DNA of 64,000 bases from contig NZ_MJAH01000007.1 in the NCBI RefSeq assembly GCF_001746295.1, forward strand, positions 272,792-336,791, given 5' to 3'. Both the position numbers and the translations under genes were made by a program. Numbering within the stretch: position 1 is the first letter of the stretch; each line of letters starts with the position of its first letter. Source of the stretch: Streptomyces sp. LUP47B (GTDB lineage: Bacteria; Actinomycetota; Actinomycetes; Streptomycetales; Streptomycetaceae). This document shows positions 39,410 through 62,355 of this stretch, one piece after another. The notes beneath the pieces are model-generated. The model was given only the letters and a program-made list of their open reading frames with translations. It was not told where the DNA came from and made no database searches.

Positions 39410-40405
39410 TCAGCCGAGGCCATCTGCCCCCACGGTCACGGCGGACTCGTCGAGCAGGGCGTCGGAGACGGGCACTGGCTTCCCGTCGAGGTCGAGGACC
39501 GGGGTGGCCTCCTTGTACCAGGACTCGATCACGGCGTTGCCCCAGAAGTCGCGGCGGCGGTCGTCGTTGACGTTCCAGCGGTACGTCTCGTGGTCGGGGT
39601 CTCCGGTGTAGTAGTCGGAGGTGTAGATCTCCACCCGGTGGCCGTCGGGATCGCGCAGGTAAAGGTAGAAGGCGTTGGAGACGCCGTGCCGTCCCGGGCC
39701 GCGTTCGATGTGGTGTTCCTTGCGGATCGAGCCGAAGAGGTCCGCTGCGCGCAGGACTTGGTGGGATTCGTGGGTGGCGACGCCGAGGTGGTGCAGGCGG
39801 GGTCCGGCGCCGCCGGTGAAGGCAACGTCGTGGACGGTCTGCTTGCGGTACATCCAGGCCGCGTACAGCTCGTGCTCGTCACCCTCGATGGTCTCCGAAC
39901 AGCCGAAGCCGAGGGACTGATAGTGGGCGTAGGCGGCCGGGACGTCGGGGGTGCAGATGTTGAAGTGGTCCAGGCGGGCCACCTCGGCGCCGTGGCGCAG
40001 GTCGTAGCGCTGAATGAGGCGTTCGGCACGCTCGATGTCGTGGAAGAACTCGACGGGGAAGCCGAGCGGGTCGATGACGCGGACGGCGTCGCCGACACCG
40101 GGCGTGCCTTCGCCTTTTCGGAGGCGCCGTACCGGTCGGCCGAGTCGGCGGAAGAACTTCTCCGCCTTGTCGACGTCCTCGGGAGTGCGGACCCGGTAGG
40201 CGAGGTGGTCGAGGGCGGCGAGCTCGCCCCTGCGCAGGACGAGGGAGTGGTGTGTCAACTCGTCGGTGCCGCGCAGGCAGAGGGTGTCGGCGTCCTCGTA
40301 CTGGACGTGGAAGCCGAGCATGTCGACCCAGAACCAGCGGGCCGCCGCGAGGTCGGTGACGGCGAGCTGGGCGTAGGCGGAGCGGATCACATCCGGCGCG
40401 GTCAC
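39410..40405 (-). CDS. hpaD: Homoprotocatechuate 2,3-dioxygenase
   Basis: A 331-residue extradiol dioxygenase opening 3,4-dihydroxyphenylacetate to 5-carboxymethyl-2-hydroxymuconate semialdehyde. The metal ligands are His147 (RLDHFN), His206 (RLHHLG) and Glu259 (GHRVEIY). Second-sphere residues known from Brevibacterium HPCD are also in place at matching spacing: Trp184, His192, Arg235 and His240. DYYTGDP follows. The C-terminal lid is somewhat shorter than in HPCD. GTG start overlaps the stop of the dehydrogenase gene (GTGA). It is the last gene of a leftward operon of hpa-type enzymes. Confidence 0.95.
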   Translation of the reverse strand: MTAPDVIRSAYAQLAVTDLAAARWFWVDMLGFHVQYEDADTLCLRGTDELTHHSLVLRRGELAALDHLAYRVRTPEDVDKAEKFFRRLGRPVRRLRKGEGTPGVGDAVRVIDPLGFPVEFFHDIERAERLIQRYDLRHGAEVARLDHFNICTPDVPAAYAHYQSLGFGCSETIEGDEHELYAAWMYRKQTVHDVAFTGGAGPRLHHLGVATHESHQVLRAADLFGSIRKEHHIERGPGRHGVSNAFYLYLRDPDGHRVEIYTSDYYTGDPDHETYRWNVNDDRRRDFWGNAVIESWYKEATPVLDLDGKPVPVSDALLDESAVTVGADGLG

Positions 40406-41883
40406 GAGGCGGCTCCGAAGCGAGGGGTGTGAACGTCACCCAGGGCGACGTGGACGATCTTGGATTCGGTGTAGAAGTCGATGGAGTGGGCGCCGCCCTC
40501 GCGGCCCACGCCGGACGCCTTGACTCCGCCGAAGGGAGTACGCAGGTCACGGACGTTGTGCGAGTTGAGCCAGACCATGCCGGACTCGACGGCGTGCGCG
40601 ATGCGGTGGCCGCGCTTGAGGTTCGACGTCCAGATATAGGCGGCCAGGCCGAACTGGGTGGCGTTGGCCAGTTCGATCGCCTCGGACTCGTCGTCGAACG
40701 GGGCGACGGCCACGACGGGGCCGAAGATCTCCTCCTGGAAGATCCGGGCGTCGCGCTCGACGTCCGCGAAGACCGTCGGCTGGAGGTAGTTGCCGTCGGC
40801 GAGGTGGTCGGGCCGGGTGCCGCCGGCGACCAGGCGGGCCTCCTTCTTGCCGATCTCGACGTAGTTCAGAACGCGTTCGTAGTGCTCCGGGTGGACCAGC
40901 GCCCCCACCTCCGTGGCCGGGTCGGAGGGCGGCCCGACGCGGACGTTCGCGGCCCGCTCCGCCAGGCGACGGGTGAACTCCTCGTACACCGGGCGCTCCA
41001 CCAGGACACGTGAACCGGCCGTGCAACGCTCGCCGTTGAGGGAGAACACGCCGAAGACGACCGAGTCGAGGGCGGCTTCGAGGTCGGCGTCCGCGAAGAT
41101 GACGGCCGGGGACTTGCCGCCCAGCTCCATCGAGGTGGTCTTCAGGTGCTGAGCGCCGGCGCGGATGATGTGGCGGCCCGTGTCGGTGGAGCCGGTGAAG
41201 GAGATCAGCGGTACGTCCGGGTGGTCGACCAGTGCCTGGCCCGCCTCCTCGCCGATGCCGTGCACGATGTTCACCACGCCCGCCGGAACCCCGGCCTCGG
41301 AGAAGATCTCCGGCCACAGCGAGGCCGACAGCGGGGTCCACTCGGCGGGCTTGAGCACCAGCGTGCACCCGGAGGCCAGGGCCGGGGCCAGCTTCCAGCT
41401 CTCCAGCATGAAGGGGGTGTTCCACGGCGTGATCAGTCCGGCCACGCCGACCGGCCTGCGCACTACGTAACTGAACTGCTCGTCCCCCTGGCGGAAGGCC
41501 TCCTCGCCGAGGGCGACGATCACGTCGGCGAAGTAGCGGAAGTTCTCCGCGGCACGCCGAGCCTGGCCGCGGGCCTGGGTGATGGGCAGCCCCGTGTCGT
41601 ACGACTCGAAGGACGCCAGCCGCTCGTGGCGGGCCTCGACGGCGTCCGCGATCCTGACCAGAACGTTGGCACGCTCCCGATTGCCGAGGGACGACCAGGC
41701 GGGGAAGGCTGACCTGGCGGCCGCCACCGCCCGTTCGACGTCGGCCGGGCCGCCGGCCGCGGCCTTCGCGTAGGGCGTGTTGGTCACCGGATCGGACACG
41801 GGGAACGTCCGTCCGTCGGCGCTGTAGACCGACTCGCCGCCGATCCAGTGCTGGATGACGGGAGGCAGGTTCTCGGTGCTCAT
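40402..41883 (-). CDS. hpaE: 5-carboxymethyl-2-hydroxymuconate semialdehyde dehydrogenase
   Basis: A 493-residue aldehyde dehydrogenase, next enzyme after HpaD. The substrate-channel ITPWNTPFMLESWKLAPAL, catalytic Glu in MELGGKSP and catalytic Cys in NGERCTAGSR are all present. The C-terminal NSHNVRDLRTPFGGVKASG matches the 2-hydroxymuconic semialdehyde dehydrogenase branch. The start is two bases after the aldolase-family gene and the end overlaps hpaD, so the genes form one translational unit. The neighbour fixes the substrate more firmly than the sequence alone would. Confidence 0.93.
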   Translation of the reverse strand: MSTENLPPVIQHWIGGESVYSADGRTFPVSDPVTNTPYAKAAAGGPADVERAVAAARSAFPAWSSLGNRERANVLVRIADAVEARHERLASFESYDTGLPITQARGQARRAAENFRYFADVIVALGEEAFRQGDEQFSYVVRRPVGVAGLITPWNTPFMLESWKLAPALASGCTLVLKPAEWTPLSASLWPEIFSEAGVPAGVVNIVHGIGEEAGQALVDHPDVPLISFTGSTDTGRHIIRAGAQHLKTTSMELGGKSPAVIFADADLEAALDSVVFGVFSLNGERCTAGSRVLVERPVYEEFTRRLAERAANVRVGPPSDPATEVGALVHPEHYERVLNYVEIGKKEARLVAGGTRPDHLADGNYLQPTVFADVERDARIFQEEIFGPVVAVAPFDDESEAIELANATQFGLAAYIWTSNLKRGHRIAHAVESGMVWLNSHNVRDLRTPFGGVKASGVGREGGAHSIDFYTESKIVHVALGDVHTPRFGAAS

Positions 41884-41885
41884 GG

Positions 41886-42812
41886 TCAGGCTCCGATCTG
41901 TGCGGTGAGGTCGCCGCCCTCGGCCAGCAGCGCGCGGATCTTCGTCAAGCCCGCGTCCGTTGGCCCGGTCAGCGGCGGGCGGACGTGGGCGGAGGCGATG
42001 CGGCCCTGCTGGGCGAGGACCCACTTGGCGGGCGCCGGATTGGTCTCGACGAACAGCAGGTCGACCAGCGGGTGCAGGCGGTAGTGCAGGTCACGGGCCG
42101 CGTCGAAGTCGCCGGCCTCCCACAGTTCGTACATCCGAGCCACCGCGGTGGGGGCCAGGTTGGCCACGGCCGACACGAAGCCCGCCCCGCCGAGTGCCAT
42201 CAGCGGCAGGCAGAGCAGCTCGATGCCCGACCACACCAGCAGCGAGCGGCCGCAGGCATGCAGTACGCGGGAGAAGTGCTCGAAGTCCTTCGTGGTCTCC
42301 TTCACGCCGACGAAGTTGTCGAAGTCGGTGAACAGCCGCTTGACCGTGTCCGGGGCGATGTCGACGGCAGTGCGGGAGGGCACGTTGTAGGCGACGATCG
42401 GCAGGTCCGGGAACTCCCGGGCCACCCTCGCGTACCACTGGTAGAGGGCCTCCTGGGTGGGCCGCGCGTAGTACGGCGTGATGACCAGGGCCGCGTCGGC
42501 GCCCAACTCCTGAGCCGCTGCGGTGAGTTCCAGGGCCTCGTCGAGCTTGTGGGAGCCGGTGCCGGGCAGGAAGGGCACCCGGTCGCCGATCTCCTCGACC
42601 GCCGTGCGCATCGCGGCGATCCGCTCGGTGACGCTCTGCGCGCTCGGCTCGCCCGTCGATCCGCCGAGCGAGATGCCGTGCGAGCCGGACTCCAGCTGGA
42701 AGCGGATCAGGTCACGCAGGCTGTCGTGGTCGAGGGCACCGTCCGCGGTGAACGGTGTGACGACGGGGGCTATGGACCCGCGGATGGCCGACGGGTCGCT
42801 GCGGAACTTCAC
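41886..42812 (-). CDS. DapA-family aldolase in hpa operon
   Basis: A 308-residue class I (Schiff-base) aldolase of the dihydrodipicolinate synthase family. GGSTGEPSAQS is the pyruvate-binding loop, Tyr142 lies in AYNVPSRT and the imine-forming Lys171 in VGVKETTKD. In this operon it is a strong candidate for the last step, cleavage of 2-oxo-4-hydroxyheptanedioate to pyruvate and succinic semialdehyde, normally done by the unrelated HpaI. GTG at 42812 overlaps the previous stop (GTGA) and follows AAGGGAG. An in-frame GTG at 42830 is less likely. Confidence 0.85.
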   Translation of the reverse strand: MKFRSDPSAIRGSIAPVVTPFTADGALDHDSLRDLIRFQLESGSHGISLGGSTGEPSAQSVTERIAAMRTAVEEIGDRVPFLPGTGSHKLDEALELTAAAQELGADAALVITPYYARPTQEALYQWYARVAREFPDLPIVAYNVPSRTAVDIAPDTVKRLFTDFDNFVGVKETTKDFEHFSRVLHACGRSLLVWSGIELLCLPLMALGGAGFVSAVANLAPTAVARMYELWEAGDFDAARDLHYRLHPLVDLLFVETNPAPAKWVLAQQGRIASAHVRPPLTGPTDAGLTKIRALLAEGGDLTAQIGA

Positions 42813-44239
42813 TGTGTTTCTCCCTTGCACCAGTTCTCGTAGGCGTCCCGCCAGGCCGGACCCAGCGGATACAGGCCGTCGACGCTTTCGCCCGCGGCGA
42901 CCTGCTCGGTGATGAAGCGCTCCTGCCGTTCCTGTTCGCGGCAGTCGGCGATCAGTTCCTCGGCGAGGTCGGGCGGTACGACGACCACGCCGTCGGCGTC
43001 GCCGACGATCAGGTCGCCGGGCTGAACCAGAGCCCCGCCGCAGGCGATGGGCACCCCGGTGTCCCAGGGAACGTGCCTGCGGCCGAGGACGGAGGGGTGG
43101 GCACCGGCCGCGTAGACGGGCAGGCCCAGGCCGGTGATGGCGGCGGCGTCGCGGACGGCGCCGTCGGTGACGACACCGGCCGCGCCCCGCCGGGCGGCTC
43201 TCAGCGCGAGAATGTCGCCGAGCGTGCCCGCGGTCGGGTCCCGCCGGGCATCCATCACCAGGACATGCCCGGGACGCAGCTCCTCGATCGCCCGCTTCTG
43301 GGCGTTCATGCCGGTGCCGTACCGCTTGAACAGGTCCTCACGGAGCGGCAGATAGCGCAGGGTGTGGGCCACGCCCACCATCGCCGTGGCGCTGACCGGC
43401 CGTACACCGTCGATCGACATGTGCGGCAGACCGCGCGAGCGCATCTGCGCGCTCAGCGTCGCCACGGCGACCGAGCGAAGTCCGTCGGCAAGGTCGTCGG
43501 CCAGCAGCGGCTTGGCCACGTACCCCGACCCGTAGGCCGATTCCTCCTCGGCCCGGTCGGTCCTGGGCTGCGCGCCCCACGGCTCCAGGTCGTGATCGGC
43601 GTCGGCAATCGGGTTGCGCAGCACTCCTGTGCTCAACCGGCCGTCGCCGACCTCGACTTCGACCACGTCGCCCGGTCCGACCACCGAGGCCCCGGCCGGG
43701 GTACCGGTGAGGATCACATCCCCGGGTTCCAGGGTGAGCAGCCTGGACAGGTCCGCGACCAGCTCCCCGAACGGGAACAGCAGCGTGTCGGTCGTGTCGT
43801 CCTGGACCAGCTCACCGTTGACCCAGGTCCGCAAACGCAGCGCGTCGGGGTCGAGTCCGGCGGCGTCCAGCAGCCGTGGCCCGATCGGGGTGAAGCCGTC
43901 CGCGCCTTTGGAGCGCAGGTTGGAGCCGCGGTCGGCGTACCGCAGGTCGTAGACGCCCGCGTCGTTGGCGGCGGTCACCCAGCGCACGTGGCGCCAGCCG
44001 TCCTCCGGGCGCACCCGGCGGGCGCGCGTACCGATGACCAGGGCGATCTCGCCTTCGAAGCCCAGGAGTCGGCAACCCCGCGGCCTGATGATCGCCTCCT
44101 GCGTGCCGGCCAGGGACGACGGCGGCTTAAGGAAATAGGAGGGGTGGGCGGGGGTCCGGCCGCGCTCCTCGGCGCGGCTGCGGAAGTTGAGGTGGACAGC
44201 GATGATCTTCGATGGGGGGTTCCCCAAGGGGTGCGACAC
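42809..44239 (-). CDS. Fusion of FAH-family isomerase/decarboxylase and RraA-like domain
   Basis: A 476-residue two-domain protein. Residues 1-215 are a fumarylacetoacetate-hydrolase fold like HpaG, with metal-site acids in FEGEIALVIG and NDAGVYDLRYADRG and the segment GDVILTGTPAG. Residues about 240-450 are RraA/HMG-aldolase-like, with DARRDPTAGTLGDILALRA, VTDGAVRDAAAI and GDADGVVVVPP. The first part should perform the decarboxylation/isomerisation after HpaE. The second part could be a metal-dependent aldolase for the final cleavage, or a regulatory domain. Its stop overlaps the DapA-like start. HpaG in other bacteria is usually a tandem FAH duplication, not this fusion. Confidence 0.87.
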   Translation of the reverse strand: MSHPLGNPPSKIIAVHLNFRSRAEERGRTPAHPSYFLKPPSSLAGTQEAIIRPRGCRLLGFEGEIALVIGTRARRVRPEDGWRHVRWVTAANDAGVYDLRYADRGSNLRSKGADGFTPIGPRLLDAAGLDPDALRLRTWVNGELVQDDTTDTLLFPFGELVADLSRLLTLEPGDVILTGTPAGASVVGPGDVVEVEVGDGRLSTGVLRNPIADADHDLEPWGAQPRTDRAEEESAYGSGYVAKPLLADDLADGLRSVAVATLSAQMRSRGLPHMSIDGVRPVSATAMVGVAHTLRYLPLREDLFKRYGTGMNAQKRAIEELRPGHVLVMDARRDPTAGTLGDILALRAARRGAAGVVTDGAVRDAAAITGLGLPVYAAGAHPSVLGRRHVPWDTGVPIACGGALVQPGDLIVGDADGVVVVPPDLAEELIADCREQERQERFITEQVAAGESVDGLYPLGPAWRDAYENWCKGETQ

Positions 44240-44248
44240 CGGGCTCCT

Positions 44249-45304
44249 TCAGCTGCCGGACGACTCGCCGTGACCGCGGACCCGCTCGCGCAGGGCGAGC
44301 AGTCCGTGCACCGCGTCGAGGGAGGGGGACGGGACACCGGTGCGGCGCGCGAGTTCGCGTACGGCACCGACGAGGGCGTCGAGTTCGAGGGGCCGGCCGC
44401 GGTTCGCGTCCTGCAGCATCGAGGTGCGGAACGCGCCGAGCTTGCGGGCGATGTCGAGCCGGTCGTCGGCCGTCATGGCGCTCTCGATGCCGAGAGCGGC
44501 ACCGACGGCCGCCGTCTCGTCGAACATGGCGGCACACACCTGCCGTACGTCCGGGTCGTCGAGGATGTCCAGGACGGTGGCGCCGGTGAGCGCGCTGACG
44601 GGGTTGAGGTTGACGTTGCCCAGGAGCTTCTCCCAGACGTCCCGGCGGATGTCGGTGCTGGGTTCGGGGCGGACGGGGCCCCTGGAGAGGGCTTCGGCGC
44701 ATTGCGTGACGCGCTGGGAGATGCCGCCCAGCGGATCACCGATGATCAGACGGGAACCGCTGACAAGTGTGACCCGGCCCGGTCCGTCGACCGCGCTGCT
44801 GAAGTGCGCCACTCCGTGCATGACCCGCTCGGCGGGCAGGAACCGCAGCAGTTGCCCGTCGGGGTCGACCGATCTCAGCACGGGATCCTGTCCGGTGTGC
44901 TCGGCGGTGGACGGCAACCACCAGGGCACTCCGTTGGCCACGACCAGCACGTCCGAGCCGTGCTCGACCCAGGTACGGATACTGCGGGCGGCCGGAAGCA
45001 GGTACTGGCTCTTGACGCAGACGACGGCCAGGTCCGGAACGGGGAGCCGAGCGGCGTCGTGCGCGGTGGGGAAGTGGTGACGGACCTCGGCTCCCGTTGA
45101 CGGGCCGTCTGCCGTCTCCCCGCCGCGCAGCAGGAGTCCTTGCACGGCGATCGCGTCGAGGTGCGGGCCCGGCCGTCCGAGCAGAGAGACCTCGACGCCC
45201 GAGGCGGTGAACGCCCCGGCGAGGGTGGCGCCGACGGCGCCCGGGCCCACGACGGTGATCCTCGGTGGCCGGCCGCTCGGCGGAGATGCGGGTGGATGCG
45301 ACAA
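44249..45304 (-). CDS. Ketopantoate reductase-family dehydrogenase
   Basis: A 351-residue NADP-dependent 2-oxoacid reductase of the ApbA/PanE type. The cofactor motif VVGPGAVGATLAG is near residue 18 and VVCVKSQYLLPAA near 93. The catalytic-helix Lys is in KLLGNVNLNPVSALTG (about 234). The TTG start is supported by AAAGGAGG ten bases upstream. It is first gene of the leftward hpa operon, 9 bp before the FAH-RraA fusion, so a catabolic 2-oxoacid is more likely the substrate than ketopantoate. Confidence 0.87.
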   Translation of the reverse strand: MSHPPASPPSGRPPRITVVGPGAVGATLAGAFTASGVEVSLLGRPGPHLDAIAVQGLLLRGGETADGPSTGAEVRHHFPTAHDAARLPVPDLAVVCVKSQYLLPAARSIRTWVEHGSDVLVVANGVPWWLPSTAEHTGQDPVLRSVDPDGQLLRFLPAERVMHGVAHFSSAVDGPGRVTLVSGSRLIIGDPLGGISQRVTQCAEALSRGPVRPEPSTDIRRDVWEKLLGNVNLNPVSALTGATVLDILDDPDVRQVCAAMFDETAAVGAALGIESAMTADDRLDIARKLGAFRTSMLQDANRGRPLELDALVGAVRELARRTGVPSPSLDAVHGLLALRERVRGHGESSGS

Positions 45305-45388
45305 CGCCGTCGCACCTCCTTTTCGGGTGTGGTCGTGGGCTGGTGTGACCGTTCGCAGCGAGCATGCGCCGCCTCACCGCCCGCAACA

Positions 45389-45436
45389 ATGTCGGTGCCT
45401 CCACTCACAGACGTTGCGTGATGTAGATTCCGACAT
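45389..45436. promoter_or_regulatory. PucR half-sites in divergent hpa / pucR promoter
   Basis: ATGTCGG (45389-45395) and CCGACAT (45430-45436) are exact inverted half-sites, 41 bp centre to centre, close to four helical turns. They lie 22-69 bp before the PucR start. A third CCGACAT occurs at 47124 ahead of the class II aldolase gene. Confidence 0.5.
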
Positions 45437-45457
45437 CCCTTTGAAACGGAGGCCGGC

Positions 45458-47083
45458 ATGACCGCGATGCCCCTCGAGCAGCTCGTCGAGGCCCTGCGAG
45501 GCGGTGTCATCACCCTGCTGTCCGACGGCGCCGCGGCTGAGTGGCGCGTCACCGGCGCCGAGTTGCTGGACCACCCGGAGGCGCTTGCGACCACCGCGCC
45601 CGGACACCTGTTGCTCGGGGTCGGCCTGGACGTCGCCGATCGCGAGGCGTTGGGTGCCGCGTTTCGGACGGCGGCGGACCGGTCCTGCGCACTCGCCGTC
45701 AAGTGCCCCACTCCCCCGCCACCGGAGGTGTCGGCGCAGGTCGCCACGACCCGCGTCCCCGTCCTGGCCGTCGCTCCGCGGGTGCCGTGGACGCGGGTGC
45801 AGCGCCTGGTCACGACGATCCTGGCCGCGCGCCGGGCGGTCGCGGAACCGGGCGGCGGCGGGACCACGGGCGGCGACCTGTTCTCCCTGGCCAACGCGGT
45901 CGCCGGAATCGTCGGCGGCGCAGTCGCGATCATGGACACCCAGCAGGTGGTGGTCGCCTACTCGAACCTGCCCGACCAGCCCATCGACGAGACCCGGCGG
46001 CGCGGGATCCTGGGCAGGCGGGTGCCCGAGGACGCGCTCGCCGATCACCTGAACCGGGAGGTGTGGGTGAGCGACACGGTCGTACGCCAGCACCGGCCCG
46101 GCGATCTGCCGCGCACGGCCGTGGTCATCAGGGCGGGCGAGGACGTACTCGGCTCCCTCTGGGTCGCGTTCCCCGACGAGGCCGCGGCCGCCGACTGCGG
46201 GCCCACCTTGCAGGAGGCGGCCCGGGTCGCGGCACTGCACATGCTGGCGCTGCGCCGTCAGGTCGACGCCGAGCAGGAGAGCCGCGACCTCGGCCTGCGC
46301 CACGCGCTGGAGGGCCGGTCGGGGCAGGGCGACCCGCCCGGTGGTGTCCGCCTTCCCGCCGTGCTGGTCGGGCTGGCCGAGGCGGTACAGGAGCGCGACG
46401 GCGAGGAGTCATGGGAAGCCGGCACCGCGGCCCGCCGCCGCGCAGCTCTGCTTCGGGCGCTGGACCTGGCCGTCCTCGACGGGCGCTCCCTCGGGTACGA
46501 ACCGGCGGCAGCCCTGCTCGGGGACCGCGTCTACGTGCTGCTGCCGGCCGCAGGTTCCGGCTCCGTGTCCACCGGTGTCCTGCTGGACCACCTCCTGGAC
46601 CGGGCCCGGCACAGCTTGCACCGGTCGTTCACGGCGGTCGACTCCCCCACGGTCGCAACGGCTTCCGCCCTGCTCGCGGCCCGCCGCGACATCGACGCCG
46701 CGCTCGACCACCTCCGGGAGCGACGGGCCGGACCTGGCGCGTACCACGCCGAGGACCTGCGCCCGGAGCTGGTGCTGCGGCGGCTCGTCGGCGCCGTACG
46801 CGAGGACGCCGAACTGCGCACCGGCATCGCGGAACGCCTGCGGGCACACGACGCCGAACACGGCACCGACTACTGCGCCACGCTGCTCACCTATCTGCGG
46901 CATTTCGGCGATGTCGCCGCGGCCAGTGGCGAGTTGCACATTCACCAGAACACGTTGCGGCTGCGGTTGCGCCGGGCCGAGGAACTCTTCGACGTAGCGC
47001 TCGCCGATCCGACAAGGCGCCTTCTGCTGACGCTGGAACTGACGGCCCTGACCGGCCTGTCGGAGCCACCGACGAGGGGCTGA
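45458..47083 (+). CDS. PucR/CdaR-family transcriptional regulator
   Basis: A 541-residue regulator. The N-terminal PucR-type ligand domain includes VPVLAVAPRVPWTRVQRLVT, followed by a GAF-like middle (LANAVAGIVGGAVAIMDTQQ). The C-terminal helix-turn-helix DVAAASGELHIHQNTLRLRL (about 491-510) is the PucR_2 DNA-binding pattern. It is divergent from the hpa operon and upstream of the aldolase/transporter genes. It is likely an activator of both, responding to an aromatic acid. Confidence 0.9.
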   Translation: MTAMPLEQLVEALRGGVITLLSDGAAAEWRVTGAELLDHPEALATTAPGHLLLGVGLDVADREALGAAFRTAADRSCALAVKCPTPPPPEVSAQVATTRVPVLAVAPRVPWTRVQRLVTTILAARRAVAEPGGGGTTGGDLFSLANAVAGIVGGAVAIMDTQQVVVAYSNLPDQPIDETRRRGILGRRVPEDALADHLNREVWVSDTVVRQHRPGDLPRTAVVIRAGEDVLGSLWVAFPDEAAAADCGPTLQEAARVAALHMLALRRQVDAEQESRDLGLRHALEGRSGQGDPPGGVRLPAVLVGLAEAVQERDGEESWEAGTAARRRAALLRALDLAVLDGRSLGYEPAAALLGDRVYVLLPAAGSGSVSTGVLLDHLLDRARHSLHRSFTAVDSPTVATASALLAARRDIDAALDHLRERRAGPGAYHAEDLRPELVLRRLVGAVREDAELRTGIAERLRAHDAEHGTDYCATLLTYLRHFGDVAAASGELHIHQNTLRLRLRRAEELFDVALADPTRRLLLTLELTALTGLSEPPTRG

Positions 47084-47123
47084 TGTCATATCCGCCACCG
47101 CTCCACCGGATTCACTGTCGAAC

Positions 47124-47130
47124 CCGACAT
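47124..47130 (+). promoter_or_regulatory. Third PucR-like half-site
   Basis: CCGACAT in the 139-bp gap between pucR and the class II aldolase gene. With the next three bases it reads CCGACATTGG, matching the reverse of the first half-site (CCGACATTGT) better than the second. Short motif, so low confidence. Confidence 0.3.
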
Positions 47131-47222
47131 TGGCTCGCGAGCGGTCGCGCACCCATGCTCCTGCACACCGAGGCCGTCGCCCGATACCGGCGATGCCCAC
47201 GCAGCAATCAAGGAGCACGGCA

Positions 47223-48002
47223 GTGACCGTTCTGGACACCCCGACGAGCACGGCGAAACCGGCGTACATGAGTGATGCGGAGTGGCGGGCGCGGCTCGAA
47301 CTCGCCGCCTGTTACCGCGTCTTCCACCACCTCGGTTGGGTGGAGATGGTCTTCAACCACATCACCGTCCGGGTGCCCGGCGAGGAGGGACACCTCCTGA
47401 TCAACCCGTTCGGCCTGATGTACGACGAGGTGACCGCCTCGAACCTGGTGAAGATCGACCTCGACGGCAACGTCCTGTCGGACTCGGACTGGCCCGTCAA
47501 CGAGGCGGGGCTGCTGATCCACTCGGTGATCCACGCCAACCGGCCCGACGCGCACTGCATCATGCACACCCACACCACCGCCGGCACCGGAGTCGCCTGT
47601 CTGCGCGGTGGGCTGGACCCGGACAACTTCTACGCCGCCCAACTGCACGACATGGTCGCCTACCACGACTTCGAGGGCATCACCGTCGACCCGGAGGAGA
47701 AGCCACGGCTGGTGGCCGACCTCGGCGACCGCGGCCTGATGATCCTGCGCAACCACGGCCTGCTGTCGGTGGGACCGACCGTCCCCGCCGCCTTCGCCGC
47801 CCTGTGGACTCTGCAACGGGCCTGTGAGATCCAGCTCGCCGCCCAGCAGTCCGGGCAGCCGCTGACCCCGGTGAGCCGGGAGGCGGCAGAGCGCTCGACC
47901 AAGGAGTCCTTCCAGATGGGCGACCGTACGGAGGCGGGCAGGACCCTGTTCGACGCACTGCGCCGCAGGATCGACCGCGTCGCCCCCGACTACGCCGTCT
48001 GA
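47223..48002 (+). CDS. Class II aldolase/adducin-family protein
   Basis: A 259-residue zinc aldolase-fold protein related to fuculose-phosphate aldolase. Metal ligands are visible in HCIMHTHTTAG (two His) and LRNHGLLSVG (His), and FNHITVRVPGEEGHLLINPFG is the N-terminal signature. GTG start after AAGGAG. Members of this branch include decarboxylases and aldolases in aromatic catabolism. Its place between pucR and a transporter suggests a substrate-side reaction in the same pathway, perhaps decarboxylation or retro-aldol cleavage; this is inference. Confidence 0.84.
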   Translation: MTVLDTPTSTAKPAYMSDAEWRARLELAACYRVFHHLGWVEMVFNHITVRVPGEEGHLLINPFGLMYDEVTASNLVKIDLDGNVLSDSDWPVNEAGLLIHSVIHANRPDAHCIMHTHTTAGTGVACLRGGLDPDNFYAAQLHDMVAYHDFEGITVDPEEKPRLVADLGDRGLMILRNHGLLSVGPTVPAAFAALWTLQRACEIQLAAQQSGQPLTPVSREAAERSTKESFQMGDRTEAGRTLFDALRRRIDRVAPDYAV

Positions 48003-57998: not shown

Positions 57999-59009
57999 TC
58001 ACGTGGTGTTCCACGCCGGTCTGGTGGGGGCTTGCCGCACTGCCACCAAGCCGTAGGAGGACGTGACCGCTCGCGGTCCGCTCAACGTCTTCCGGACGCC
58101 TCCGAAGCATTCTTTTGCGCCGCCGGCCGCAGGACTGAAGCAGGCCTGCACCGGCGTTCCGGGGCCGACCACGCTCATGAGGGTGTGGACGTAGGTGTCC
58201 GCCTCCTTGCGGGTGGTGACCTGGGCGCTGCGGAGGGAGCCGTGCCGGCCTCCCACCCGCATCTCGACGCGGTCCTTCACGACGGCGCCCCACATCCGGG
58301 CCCAACTCGTCCCGCATTCCTGGCTGTAGCGGATCTGGATGAAGGCACCGGTGGCGGTCTCGTGTTCGGCCAGGGTCAGCGGCTCGGCAGCGCAGCGCGT
58401 CGCGATCGGGTCCTTGTTCTGACAGGCCGTGTGCCGGCAGAGCGCCCCGGTGGCCGCGGAGGGCGTGGGGGACGCCGGCGCCTCCTCTTGGTGCGTGGGG
58501 GGAAGGTGGGTGAGTACGAGCGCCCCGAGGACGACGGCACAAGTCGACACGAGCGCGGTGACGATGTTCACGCGCCAGCGGCCGGTTGAGCTGGTGCGCG
58601 TGTCGTCGGCGCCGCTCGGAGCCGGCTCGCCGGTGTCGGTGGTGGTGTCGGCGGCGGTGTCGGGTGGGACAGTGGCGAAGCCCGGGGTCGGTGTGTCCAT
58701 CTCGGTGGCGGCCGTGTTCTGTCGAACCGGTGTCCCCCGTCTCGTCCCGGTGTCCTCCGTCGTCCGATGCGTGCGGGCGATGTCCAGGAGCGCGAGCGAA
58801 TGGTCGGCGGGTTCGTCGGCGAGACGGCACAGCTCCTTGACCGCGCTGCGCGGTGGCAGGCTCTTGCCGTTGAGGTAACGCTCCCAGGACGACTTGCTGT
58901 ACGTGGTCTCGTTCGCGAGCTGCGCGAGGCTCAGTCCGGTGCGCTGCCGCAACTTCTGGAGTACGGCGGCCAGTCGCGCGCACGGCGGGGAGGGTGCGCC
59001 GGCTGTCAT
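57999..59009 (-). CDS. Membrane-anchored XRE regulator with DUF2690 outer domain
   Basis: A 336-residue one-component protein. An N-terminal helix-turn-helix (SLAQLANETTYSKSSWERYL, then NGKSLPP) is followed by a long polar Thr/Pro-rich linker. One transmembrane helix (VNIVTALVSTCAVVLGALVL, about 150-169) leads to a C-terminal domain with paired cysteines (CRHTACQNKDP...CAAEP; IQIRYSQECGTSWARMWGAV), a DUF2690 pattern that should lie outside the cell. It overlaps the preceding XRE gene by ATGA. The layout suggests direct signalling from the wall to DNA. Confidence 0.88.
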   Translation of the reverse strand: MTAGAPSPPCARLAAVLQKLRQRTGLSLAQLANETTYSKSSWERYLNGKSLPPRSAVKELCRLADEPADHSLALLDIARTHRTTEDTGTRRGTPVRQNTAATEMDTPTPGFATVPPDTAADTTTDTGEPAPSGADDTRTSSTGRWRVNIVTALVSTCAVVLGALVLTHLPPTHQEEAPASPTPSAATGALCRHTACQNKDPIATRCAAEPLTLAEHETATGAFIQIRYSQECGTSWARMWGAVVKDRVEMRVGGRHGSLRSAQVTTRKEADTYVHTLMSVVGPGTPVQACFSPAAGGAKECFGGVRKTLSGPRAVTSSYGLVAVRQAPTRPAWNTT

Positions 59010-59836
59010 CCGCGCAACGCCTTCCACGAGCGCGGCCCCAGCATGCCGTCGACGGTGAGGCCCGCGCGGTCCTGGAACGCCTTGACCGCCCGCAGCGTCA
59101 GCGGGCCGAACATGCCGTCGATTCCTCCGGGTGAGATGCCTGCCCGGCGCAGCAGACACTGTGCCTCGGCGACGTCGGCACCGGTGGCGCCGTAGACGAT
59201 CTCGGTGTTGCGGCCCTTGTTGATGCCCGCCGACCAGCGGCCGTCGACCCGTGTGATGCGGCAGGTGTAGGAGGGCGGCGGGGAGGCCGCGGTGGTGCGG
59301 GGCGAAGTGGTGACGGCTGCCCGACCGGCTTCGTCGTCGAGGCGGAGCATGAGCAGCAGCGCCGCCGTAAGGGCTACGGCGAGGGCGGCGATGCCCGCTG
59401 TGAGAGCGATGTGCGGGAAGCGACCGGGGGCCGGTCCGGTGGCACGGGGTGGCGTGTGTGCGGTCGCTGCGGCGGGTGGCCGGGGATGCGGGGTCGCCGG
59501 GTCGGCCGGTTGCTCCTGTTCCCGCTCGCGCTGCTCGCTCTGCTGCTGTGCGGCGGGCTTGGCGCGGCGGCTGTTCCGGGAGTCGGCGGCGATCTCGTGC
59601 AGCGCGAGCAGGGGGACGGGGTCGGTGCCGGTGATCCGGGCCAGTGCCTCCACGGCCTCGCGCGGTGGCAGCGACGTGCCGCCCAGGTAACGCTCCCACG
59701 ACTTGGCGCTGTAGCCGGTCTTGACCGCGAGCTGTCGCATCGTCAGCTCGCTGTGGTCCTTCAGCCGACGTAAGCGGGTCACCAACTGCCGTGCGCTGGG
59801 GTCGAGTTCCCCGGGCAGCGTTCTGGAGCGCGGCAT
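59006..59836 (-). CDS. Membrane-anchored XRE regulator with peptidoglycan-binding domain
   Basis: A 276-residue relative of the next gene. The HTH (MRQLAVKTGYSAKSWERYLG, then TSLPP) uses nearly the same recognition sequence. A Gln/Pro-rich linker and one helix (IALTAGIAALAVALTAALLL, about 144-163) follow. The outer part ends in a PG_binding_1 domain (AQCLLRRAGISPGGIDGMFG, then VKAFQDRAGLTVDGMLGP). A membrane-bound DNA-binding protein with a peptidoglycan-reading tail is an obvious candidate wall sensor. It is divergent from two secreted peptidoglycan-binding genes. Confidence 0.9.
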   Translation of the reverse strand: MPRSRTLPGELDPSARQLVTRLRRLKDHSELTMRQLAVKTGYSAKSWERYLGGTSLPPREAVEALARITGTDPVPLLALHEIAADSRNSRRAKPAAQQQSEQREREQEQPADPATPHPRPPAAATAHTPPRATGPAPGRFPHIALTAGIAALAVALTAALLLMLRLDDEAGRAAVTTSPRTTAASPPPSYTCRITRVDGRWSAGINKGRNTEIVYGATGADVAEAQCLLRRAGISPGGIDGMFGPLTLRAVKAFQDRAGLTVDGMLGPRSWKALRG

Positions 59837-60119
59837 GTTTCCCCAAAGCGGTCGTCAGCGTGGTCGTGTGCGTGAGCAGCGGCCCCCTCCGCTTCTGCGC
59901 ATTCTGCATGAGCACGCCACATCTGTCACAGGTGTCCCACATCGCCGTCCCAGCGGATGCCGTCGTCCCAGGTCAGCAAGGTGGTCGTCCCGTAAGACCG
60001 CCACCTGGGCCGCCGCCATGGCCGTCGCGCCCGGATGCCAGGCACCTTGGTCCCGCCACCTGGCCCGCTCGGCCTGATCGGCGTGACAGGTGCGAACCCC
60101 ACAAACGAAAGAGGAACCC

Positions 60120-60566
60120 ATGCGACCGAACGCTCTGGGCAGGACCATCGCAGGCGTCATCGCCGTTGTCGGCCTCGCCGCCGGCAGTGTGGCGACCGCG
60201 GGCACCAGCTTCGCGGCGACCACGAGCACCGCGCAGACGACGGCCGTCGCCCAGCCCGCCGCCGTGGCCGCGACGCAGAACTTCGGCCTGACCTCGGCCG
60301 AGGCCAAGAACGTCCAGAACTTCCTCGCGGCCAACTGGGGTTACACGGGCGGCATCGACGGTCAGCTGGGCACCAACAGCTGGAAGGCCTTCCAGCGCTG
60401 CCTGGCCACGTACTGGGGCTACACGGGCGACATCGACGGGGACCCGGGCCCCAACACCATCAAGGCGCTGCAGCGTCTACTGAAGGACTCCTACGGCTAC
60501 ACGGGCGCCATCGACGGCATCGCCGGTTCGGGCACTCGGGCGGCGTTCAAGCGATTCGCCGCCTGA
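60120..60566 (+). CDS. Secreted three-repeat peptidoglycan-binding protein
   Basis: A 148-residue exported protein. The signal peptide ends near GTSFAATT (about 33). After a short Ala/Gln spacer come three repeats of about 33 residues with cores NWGYTGGIDGQLG, YWGYTGDIDGDPG and SYGYTGAIDGIAG, a PG_binding_1-like pattern. There is no catalytic domain, so it should bind the wall or act as partner. ATG at 60120 after GAAAGAGGA. It is divergent from the membrane-bound XRE pair. Confidence 0.87.
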   Translation: MRPNALGRTIAGVIAVVGLAAGSVATAGTSFAATTSTAQTTAVAQPAAVAATQNFGLTSAEAKNVQNFLAANWGYTGGIDGQLGTNSWKAFQRCLATYWGYTGDIDGDPGPNTIKALQRLLKDSYGYTGAIDGIAGSGTRAAFKRFAA

Positions 60567-60608
60567 CCGGTACGACCCGCCCGACCGGGCCGACCGTCGA
60601 GTGACCGG

Positions 60609-60645
60609 CCGCGGCCCGTCCTTGCCCCGCAAGGACGGGCCGCGG
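60609..60645 (+). terminator. Perfect 17-bp stem terminator
   Basis: CCGCGGCCCGTCCTTGC, loop CCC, then the exact complement. It lies 42 bp after the first peptidoglycan-binding gene and just before the next gene's leader. Without a T run it may end, or reduce, read-through between the two. Confidence 0.75.
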
Positions 60646-60708
60646 ATGTGTGTTCCCCGCTCCCCCGTCCCCACCCACGCTCGTCCAGAGAAGGAGAACC
60701 TCGCCGCC

Positions 60709-62355
60709 ATGGGAAGACCCGCAGTCGTCGTTCGCGCAGAAGACAAAAACCCACCCCACCGGGTCGCGCACCGCACCCGGTCGGGCTGGCGGATCCGCGT
60801 CGGGACGTTCGCCGCCACCGCGGCGATGGTCTCGGCCGGCATCGTGCTCGGTGCCGGCCCGGCGTCGGCGGCGCCCGCCCCCATCAGGCTGACCTCCGCG
60901 TCCTGCCCCAACGAGATCGTGCAGGGCCAGGCCAGCGGCTGTGTCACCGAGTTGCAGACCCTGCTCAACGCGCACGGCGCCGGTCTGGTGGTGGACGGTC
61001 AGTTCGGGTCGGCCACGCTCTACGCGGTCCGTGAGTACCAGGCCGCCACCGCCATCGCCGTGGACGGCCGGGTGGGCCCCGCGACCAAGAGCAAGCTGTA
61101 CGCGACCGGCGGCTCGGCGCCCGCCCCCGTCAACCTCAACTCCTCCTCGTGCCCCGCGAACATCGTGCAGGGCGCCAAGGGCGGATGCGTCACCGAACTC
61201 CAGCGGCTGCTCATCCACCACGGCTACACCGTCGACGTGGACGGCGACTTCGGCGCTGGGACCGCGAGTGCCGTCCGCAGCTTCCAGTCCGCCCACGGAC
61301 TCACGGTCGACGGCCAGGTCGGCACGAACACCAAGCGAGAGCTGTACGACACCGACGAGTCACCCTCGACGGGCGTGGACCTGAGGTCGGCGTCCTGCCC
61401 GGCGAACATCGTGGAGGGACAGAGCGGCGGTTGCGTCGCCACGCTCCAGTCCCTGCTGAACGGCAAGGGGCAGAGCCTCGCCGTCGACGGCAGCTTCGGC
61501 CCGCAAACCCTGGCGGCCGTGAAGGCGTTCCAGTCCGCGAGCGGCCTCACCACGGACGGCCAGGTCGGCCCGAACACCAAGGCCGCCCTGTACTCGAACA
61601 TCGGCGGTGGAGGCGGCAACGGCGCGCCCGCGCCGATCAACCTGAACTCCGCCTCCTGCCCGAACGAGGTTGTGCAGGGCCAACGCAGCGGCTGTGTCAC
61701 CGAGTTGCAGAGCCTGCTCAACCACCACGGGGCCGATCTCGCCGTCGACGGCGACTTCGGTCCGCTCACCGACAGTGCCGTCAGGGACTTCCAGGCCGAG
61801 AAGGGCCTCTCGGTCGACGGCGATGTGGGCCCGAACACGAAGGCCGCCCTGTACGGTGCGGTCACCCCGCCGTCGTCGCCCCCGCCCGGCGGCGGGTACG
61901 CCAAGATCCTCGACGTGGCGGCGGCAGAGGTGGGCACGGTCGAGGGCAGCGCCCGCGCGAACAGCTACGGCTCGTCCGTGGGGCTTTCGCTGTCCACGAG
62001 CAACTACGCCTGGTGCGCGACCTTCGTGAGCTGGGTGGCCAAGCAGACCGGAGCCAGCTCCTACCGCAACACCTACGTCTCGGGCTGGGTCAAGCAGGCC
62101 CGGGCCGGCAACTACCACCTGTCGGTGACCACCAACCCGCAGCCGGGCGACATCGTGGCCTTCGACTGGGACGGCGGAAGCGACTTCACCGGTGGTCACG
62201 AGCACATAGGCATCGTGCGCACAGCGCTCTCAGGGTCGTCCTTCACCACCGTCGAGGGCAACACGAGCAATCCCAACGGCGGCAGCGACGGCGTCTACGT
62301 CAAGTCCCGTTCCACGAACAGCGGTTACGACGTGGTCTTCATCCGGGTCCGCTGA
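60709..62355 (+). CDS. Secreted CHAP-domain hydrolase with four peptidoglycan-binding repeats
   Basis: A 548-residue wall enzyme. An Arg-rich N-terminus and hydrophobic segment (VGTFAATAAMVSAGIVLGAG) end at PASAAPAP. Four repeats of about 80 residues each start with a paired-cysteine box (SASCPNEIVQGQASGCVTEL and similar) and end in a VDGxVGP-type PG_binding_1 core. A Pro/Gly linker leads to the CHAP domain (about 430-548). This has the catalytic Cys in YAWCATFVSWVAKQTG, then QPGDIVAFDWDG and the catalytic His in GHEHIGIV. It should cut peptidoglycan cross-links or amides. AAGGAG lies before ATG 60709. Confidence 0.92.
   Translation: MGRPAVVVRAEDKNPPHRVAHRTRSGWRIRVGTFAATAAMVSAGIVLGAGPASAAPAPIRLTSASCPNEIVQGQASGCVTELQTLLNAHGAGLVVDGQFGSATLYAVREYQAATAIAVDGRVGPATKSKLYATGGSAPAPVNLNSSSCPANIVQGAKGGCVTELQRLLIHHGYTVDVDGDFGAGTASAVRSFQSAHGLTVDGQVGTNTKRELYDTDESPSTGVDLRSASCPANIVEGQSGGCVATLQSLLNGKGQSLAVDGSFGPQTLAAVKAFQSASGLTTDGQVGPNTKAALYSNIGGGGGNGAPAPINLNSASCPNEVVQGQRSGCVTELQSLLNHHGADLAVDGDFGPLTDSAVRDFQAEKGLSVDGDVGPNTKAALYGAVTPPSSPPPGGGYAKILDVAAAEVGTVEGSARANSYGSSVGLSLSTSNYAWCATFVSWVAKQTGASSYRNTYVSGWVKQARAGNYHLSVTTNPQPGDIVAFDWDGGSDFTGGHEHIGIVRTALSGSSFTTVEGNTSNPNGGSDGVYVKSRSTNSGYDVVFIRVR

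Follow-up and report, generated by a model that had tools for sequence, protein, structure and literature searches.

A pair of putative membrane-anchored XRE regulators and an operator-like element facing a small secreted-protein gene in Streptomyces

Genes and features of the locus

This work concerns a gene cluster of Streptomyces sp. LUP47B (contig NZ_MJAH01000007.1) in which two genes for putative membrane-bound transcription regulators, here called A and B, diverge from a gene for a small secreted protein, and an operator-like element lies in the spacer between the two units. The stretch of DNA that was analysed, 64,000 nucleotides long, is called the window, and all coordinates are those of the window. 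The central features are the following.

57999..59009, minus strand: regulator B, 336 residues, ATG at 59009, stop at 57999 (Pfam, hydropathy, cysteine alignment)
59006..59836, minus strand: regulator A, 276 residues, ATG at 59836, stop at 59006 (Pfam, hydropathy, AlphaFold2)
59901..59929, minus strand: promoter-like sequence GTGACA-N17-CAGAAT of the A-B operon, abutting the element (9/12 matches, shuffle mean 0.0)
59930..59994, minus strand: operator-like element with GGGACG-like half-sites and a TGACCTG core (match of model R1 at an expect value (E) of 3.5e-10, whole own genome)
60019..60051, plus strand: promoter-like block of the secreted gene, consensus TGGC-N19-GCAnTCTCGT (information profile of 46 non-redundant loci)
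60120..60566, plus strand: small secreted protein, the divergent partner, 148 residues (PG_binding_1, E 1.4e-9; signal-peptide rule)

The original prediction, made by a reader of the letters alone, described A and B as ATGA-coupled XRE proteins with almost the same recognition helix and one membrane helix each, ending outside in a peptidoglycan-binding (PGB) domain and a cysteine-rich DUF2690 domain, respectively, with no kinase in the unit. All of this was borne out. The start codon of B overlaps the stop codon of A in an ATGA, and both proteins contain the helix-turn-helix (HTH) family HTH_31. In A the HTH (residues 17-76; E 7.1e-14, 52.3 bits, cut-off 27) is followed by a long helix, a flexible linker, a membrane helix at about 143-169 and an outside PG_binding_1 domain (218-274; E 2.8e-16, 59.9 bits, cut-off 23); in B the order is HTH (12-67; E 6.1e-14, 52.5 bits, cut-off 27), membrane helix (about 149-167) and outside DUF2690 domain (195-282; E 2.1e-13). 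The helix regions read YSAKSWERYLGGTSLPP in A and YSKSSWERYLNGKSLPP in B, and S-W-E/D/Q-R-Y-L is nearly invariant in the recognition helices of 64 A and 64 B proteins from the loci described below. Kyte-Doolittle profiles, from which membrane helices were assigned, like the gene starts, by simple rules of our own, gave a single hydrophobic segment in 64/64 A and 62/64 B proteins, the B exceptions (L077 and L152) being cut by contig ends. The charges flanking the membrane helix are consistent with an inside position of the HTH in 60/64 A (equal in the other four) and 45/61 B proteins.

In the AlphaFold2 model of A (mean predicted local distance difference test score (pLDDT) 83.3, predicted template-modelling score (pTM) 0.43) the HTH is a helical bundle whose last helix is long, and a disordered linker leads on to the helix 143-169 and the C-terminal domain. 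Foldseek matched the C-terminal domain to a C. difficile PGB protein (E 5.7e-5) and to SleB (E 4.1e-4), and the HTH weakly to ClgR, Cro, P22 c2 and SinR (E about 0.007-0.03). The outside domain of B, in which six cysteines are invariant in 43 aligned domains, was modelled confidently as an all-beta fold (pLDDT 91.7, pTM 0.78). Foldseek found nothing for it at 1e-3 or better (best E 1.4e-3, CrdA). CBM56 or another carbohydrate-binding module was considered as the class of this domain; the best VIA-align match was 5t7a (Z 7.0, root mean square deviation 2.7, 88 aligned), amid unrelated Ig-like rows; because Z 7.0 falls in the tool's "common arrangement" range, no function was derived from it. 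No lipocalin was among the matches listed, which excludes nothing. A sequence search of solved structures returned one meaningless match for the outside domain of B (E 0.7) and one weak match, to a designed protein, for the HTH of A (E 0.6), and PADLOC had no match for A, B or the secreted protein. Among A proteins with a named source, the closest that came up belongs to Streptomyces canus DSM 40017 (88% identity).

The original prediction also had a secreted protein with three PGB repeats diverging from the pair, and this is what lies there: the 148-residue protein has three Y-T-G-x-IDG repeats by eye, and Pfam scores one stretch (38.4 bits, cut-off 23). By the PG_binding_1 cut-off both A and the secreted protein pass as PGB-domain proteins, with predicted binding. 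It must be noted that "secreted" here means positive by a signal-peptide rule of our own.

In two kinase-like proteins of the same genome (L019:2084-3628 on contig C32 and L021:3698-5323 on contig C23) the C-terminal end is an outside module with 39-41% identity to the one in A (query residues about 180-275); kinases and HTH proteins of this genome have this module in common.

Conservation of the pair, the partner and the element

Of 101 Streptomyces genomes searched for protein A, 43 had matches at E 1e-20 or better. The 64 loci with an A gene that were compared comprise 34 fetched regions, 31 named loci of another collection, the window and a copy on contig C6 of the same genome, minus L084 (no PGB end), L078 (a fused form) and L148 (A cut at the contig end). 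Four contigs occur in both collections and so appear twice (L051=L135, L052=L138, L053=L143, L060=L156), which leaves 60 distinct loci among the 64. The neighbourhood survey called for by the original prediction showed B adjoining A in 63/64 loci (59/60 distinct ones); in the sole exception, L082, a second XRE gene is present which falls below our rule for B. Apart from the two truncations at contig ends mentioned above, B has a frame change before DUF2690 in L063. A divergent signal-peptide gene was found at 56/65 loci (the 64 and L078), or 53/61 distinct ones, the loci in which none was found being L052, L138, L071, L072, L074, L078, L081, L082 and L134. The A-B pair occurs at several chromosomal places, for example beside argS and lysS or between folD and mdh (genes named by reading). 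The same genome has a second full module at L018:6911-9290 (the C6 copy), in which the element and genes for A-like and B-like regulators are accompanied by a divergent gene for a secreted PGB protein.

The conserved partner is small, and no catalytic domain is recognised in it. Pfam assigned 21 of 28 scanned partners to PG_binding_1 and four to Inhibitor_I36, and found no family at E 0.01 in three (L063, L068, L080). The cargo can be exchanged in place: at the argS/lysS site, L076 has an I36 protein where its relatives have a PGB protein.

Among 197 genomes of the class, A matches were found in 15, all of the genus Streptomyces, which is the only genus of the family in that set. Among 61 genomes of the family, 43 from 14/17 genera had a match, a count that includes XRE-only matches. 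Of 20 loci outside Streptomyces but within the family, 19 have a second XRE gene next to A, with DUF2690 recognisable in 18. On inspection, genome G088 had XRE-DUF2690 genes without a PGB domain, and G045, first matched over the HTH only, had a full A with B adjoining.

The 65-bp element between the A-B and the secreted-gene units has the pattern GGGACGTCCCA-N5-TGACCTGC and further GGGACG half-sites. When the 350-base regions upstream of A are searched for TGGGACGTCCCA and for TGACCTGC-N-GGGACG separately, the best matches to the two are exactly 17 bp apart in 27/35 loci; scored jointly, the two parts have no more than 8 mismatches in 26 positions at 31/35 loci. GGGACG occurs, on either strand, 109 times in 12,250 bases upstream of A (8.90/kb) vs 808 times in 514,030 bases elsewhere in the loci (1.57/kb), and the palindrome with up to 2 mismatches 27 times upstream of A vs 18 times elsewhere in the loci; these enrichments are not an independent test, because the motif was first spotted by eye in the same regions. 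Forty-nine non-redundant sites (up to 6 mismatches) align across 68 bp, one row having an internal gap. The window site, with 7 mismatches, was outside the training alignment of the element model, which is a sequence-only model. In the 11-Mb own genome the model finds two strong sites, both in A-B spacers: the C6 copy (E 1.7e-12, part of the training set) and the window (E 3.5e-10), the next match having E 0.007. With one mismatch allowed, GGGACGTCCCA-N5-TGACCTGC has 26 matches in 24 of the 101 genomes (reversed control, 1), 18 of them within A spacers.

The element and the promoter-like block of the secreted gene share a single gap-free register over about 120 bases in 46 non-redundant loci, and the palindrome lies 95-239 bases (median 117; 51 loci, up to 6 mismatches) from the start codon of the secreted gene; the distance from the element to A is variable. 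On the other side, GCAGAATG is found within 200 bp upstream of A in 42/64 loci vs 45 occurrences in 1.63 Mb (both strands of the loci, window excluded). This geometry, with a fixed register on the secreted side, a variable distance to A and an A-B promoter-like sequence that abuts the element, suggests that the element serves primarily the secreted gene, with control of A-B as a plausible second role. Because it lies upstream of the promoter-like block and not over it, its position favours activation over repression.

The element is not a mark of A spacers only, an idea that was rejected since sites elsewhere precede other genes. Twenty distant sites (E 4e-11 to 7e-4) were taken from among the matches listed; one of them, L215, belongs to an A-type locus of G087 and is its A spacer, hence 19 lie outside A spacers. 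We looked for signal-peptide genes starting 60-300 bp from the site and compared the palindrome side with the other side and with random points of the module loci. Among the matches listed, such a gene is present on the palindrome side at 11/19 sites outside A spacers, vs 192/4000 random points (binomial p 1.6e-10), and on the other side at 0/20. Reading adds two sites that the rule missed, L210 with a PGB-repeat gene and L208 with a gene for a secreted hydrolase-like protein, and L223, L224 and L225 are weak positives. The element at L208 (G068:C1:614203-614266, E 8.2e-9) stands upstream of an Rv2525c-type glycoside hydrolase-like secreted protein with a Tat-like signal, named by eye. Eight further sites of the pattern lie outside A spacers: L110, L114, L115 and L116 are upstream of small signal-peptide genes (L114 and L116 on the opposite flank of an A-B pair), L106 is upstream of a PGB-repeat gene, and L122 upstream of an XRE gene, while L103 falls within coding sequence and L123 next to transposase genes. 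Not counted as targets were L103, L123 and L207 (transposase-side, the same place in G055), L213, L214 and L222, nor the partial matches L217 and L221 (site at about base 1600; E 1.9e-5 and 9e-5), which come from two genomes and each precede a dnaK-like gene; these may be chance or a different signal.

With cut-offs of 1e-22 for A and 1e-6 for the element, 34 of the 101 genomes have both, one (G088) has A only and none the element only. With an A cut-off of 1e-20 the figures are 34 with both and nine with an XRE match only, and with 1e-24 they are 33 with both and one (G055) with the element only; the A-type genome G087 is below both cut-offs (element 1.5e-5). This co-occurrence is partly circular, because the model was trained at A loci. 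Among the matches listed, nine sites outside A spacers reach 1e-6 (in G089, G013, G055, G068, G006, G051, G056, G090 and G045), all in genomes with A and the element, for which the chance is about 6e-5. In other genera of the family the element was found at E 1.2e-8 or better at 7/20 loci from 6 genera (L251, L253, L254, L256, L261, L268, L269).

Beyond the small secreted gene follow two features outside the conserved core.

60609..60645, plus strand: terminator-like stem between the secreted gene and the CHAP gene, 17 pairs (fold z -3.68 for the 134-nt intergenic RNA)
60709..62355, plus strand: secreted hydrolase with four PGB stretches and a CHAP domain, 548 residues (Pfam), present beside a subset of loci

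The second of these is the four-repeat CHAP hydrolase that the original prediction placed here: Pfam finds four PG_binding_1 stretches and CHAP (E 4.4e-13). Its start was taken as ATG 60709 in place of the longer listed open reading frame, and its N-terminus was judged to be secretory by reading. CHAP adjoins the module at 13/65 loci from 12 distinct genomes (window, L051=L135, L126, L127, L128, L130, L131, L132, L134, L153, L154 and L155); L129 and L133 end short of its expected position.

The A-B pair as a membrane-anchored regulator and the rival explanations

We consider it likely, with a probability of about 0.7, that the A-B pair is a membrane-anchored transcription regulator of the Streptomycetaceae, which controls small secreted, mostly wall-binding proteins via the element. 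At the sequence level this is supported by the domains, the pairing, the single membrane helix, the conserved element with its fixed register, and its recurrence before other small secreted genes. The similar HTH domains of A and B would lie on the cytoplasmic side and would bind, probably jointly, GGGACG-type half-sites in the 65-bp element, placed between the putative A-B promoter and the divergent promoter of the secreted gene. The outer domains, peptidoglycan-binding in A and cysteine-rich, all-beta DUF2690 in B, may report a property of the wall, and the signal would alter expression of the divergent secreted gene and, through autoregulation, that of A-B itself. Binding of the element by A and B, their assembly into a heteromer, activation rather than repression and sensing of the wall are the steps that we infer. 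A single case, in G056 (L078:6357-6977, minus strand, contig C9), suggests that the HTH domains of A and B function as one unit: here one open frame of 207 residues joins an HTH of the A type to one of the B type and lacks both a membrane helix and the outside domains; alternatively, this is a decaying locus. At another place in the same genome there is a PGB-repeat gene with the element (E 5.8e-8).

Several observations speak against this interpretation. The charge bias around the membrane helix is opposite in 5/61 and equal in 11/61 B proteins. The element is unrecognisable upstream of A in L068, L072, L078, L082 and L137, and weak or absent at 13/20 loci of other genera. Six of the 20 distant sites (L207, L213, L214, L217, L221, L222) have no secreted gene by rule or by reading. 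The partner, as the Pfam assignments above show, is not always a PGB protein, and the PGB domains can be structural anchors instead of sensors.

A more specific version of the mechanism, which we regard as unlikely, is a thermostat of wall occupancy: the outer PGB domain of a heteromeric, membrane-bound A-B and the secreted PGB protein under A-B control would compete for common sites in the wall, and through this competition the cell would sense the wall that is still uncovered. The secreted partner resembles the outer module of A at L018 and L079. If this were true, a promoter slot that takes other secreted cargo, such as the I36 family, would amount to a plug-in secretion circuit.

The original prediction went further, in that A and B were to be sensors that switch on matching wall enzymes. 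The presence of a secreted wall-binding neighbour and of the element in the divergent spacer agrees with the first half of this claim; the enzyme half is unsupported, because the partner has no recognised catalytic domain and the CHAP gene occurs at a minority of loci, behind the terminator-like stem and, in the window, without an element. For the last two reasons CHAP was rejected as a member of the element-defined unit. The full version, in which A and B respond to wall damage by directly activating the divergent wall enzymes, among them CHAP, seems to us quite improbable. It could draw on the CHAP neighbours at the 13 loci, which include L153 and L154, where A is only 47 and 45% identical to the window A, and on a weak partial match of the element near CHAP in L131 (E 0.019); that match aside, the element model gave nothing significant beside CHAP in the window and 11 CHAP loci, and most module loci have no CHAP gene.

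It is also possible, but rather unlikely, that the element belongs to a sigma-factor promoter or is the target of an unlinked regulator, and that A and B act otherwise at the membrane. The fixed register between the element and the promoter-like block would be natural in a compound promoter, and the element is also found upstream of genes far from any A-B pair. Yet element matches at 1e-6 or better are confined, among the 101 genomes, to those with an A match, a partly circular result as said above, and a search of Rfam with positions 59600-60800 gave no match at E 0.1. DevR/OsdR sites resemble the element in being palindromes with G-rich half-sites, and one OsdR site contains GGGGACGATCGTCCCC, but the OsdR consensus AGGGCCGATCGGCCCT, as given in the available part of PMC5069765, is unlike that of the element, in which GGGACGTCCC has no spacer and is accompanied by TGACCTGC and repeated half-sites at fixed offsets.

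Most improbable of all, in our opinion, is that A and B are morphogenetic scaffolds like RodZ, with HTH domains that bind proteins and not DNA. RodZ has the same general layout, in which the HTH at the N-terminus is followed by a single membrane helix and a domain outside. However, Pfam at E 0.1 identifies the HTH of A and B as HTH_31 and finds neither HTH_25 nor DUF4115, which we take to be the names of the RodZ domains; the outside domains differ, the recognition-helix residues are conserved, and an operator-like element adjoins the genes.

Comparison with known systems and further observations

By domain content, with a DNA-binding domain and a membrane helix in one chain, A and B are transmembrane transcription regulators (TTRs). 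In the TTR survey of PMC10269533, as far as its available text goes, the single-pass layout is the commonest, and ToxR, CadC and TcpP resemble A and B in that a single chain carries the DNA-binding domain, the one membrane helix and the domain outside, with no kinase. A and B differ from the TTRs in that text in being two HTH_31 regulators encoded as an overlapping pair, in having PGB and DUF2690 domains outside, and in their conserved divergent secreted partner; the main text of the survey does not mention XRE, HTH_31, peptidoglycan, Actinobacteria or DUF2690. VtrA/VtrC and ToxR/ToxS are, like A-B, two membrane proteins from overlapping or adjacent genes with one regulatory output (available part of PMC9214523). 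In those co-component pairs just one partner contains a DNA-binding domain, and the second has a lipocalin-like sensor instead (PMC9214523, and for ToxS PMC10269533, both in part), whereas B has an HTH_31 of its own, thus A-B is not a pair of the VtrA/VtrC type.

Within one open-access library the A-B module appears to be undescribed, a statement that holds only for the searches made there. Queries on XRE, one-component, membrane, ToxR and peptidoglycan gave no description of the module among the matches listed; DUF2690 was named only in a fungal secretome study; and the string GGGACGTCCC led, judged by title and start of abstract, to nothing on a bacterial regulator. The available part of PMC13118837 does not mention the module. 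In our judgement, wall-to-gene signalling that works without a kinase or an anti-sigma factor is little explored in Gram-positive bacteria. The unit is compact and conserved, consisting of two regulators, a predicted DNA site and its targets, and has a natural soluble HTH fusion, which makes every step testable; it would also suggest a role for DUF2690.

A third XRE-DUF2690 gene of the same genome lies on contig C32 (L019:10135-12028), between folD and mdh by reading, with a short XRE gene before it. The 18-kb locus around it has no significant copy of the element, the best match (E 0.052) being away from the XRE-DUF2690 gene. Elsewhere in the window, positions 39410-48002 hold a run of genes which, judged by eye from the translations, resembles aromatic-compound catabolism (dioxygenase, aldehyde dehydrogenase, dihydrodipicolinate-synthase-like and fumarylacetoacetate-hydrolase-like proteins).

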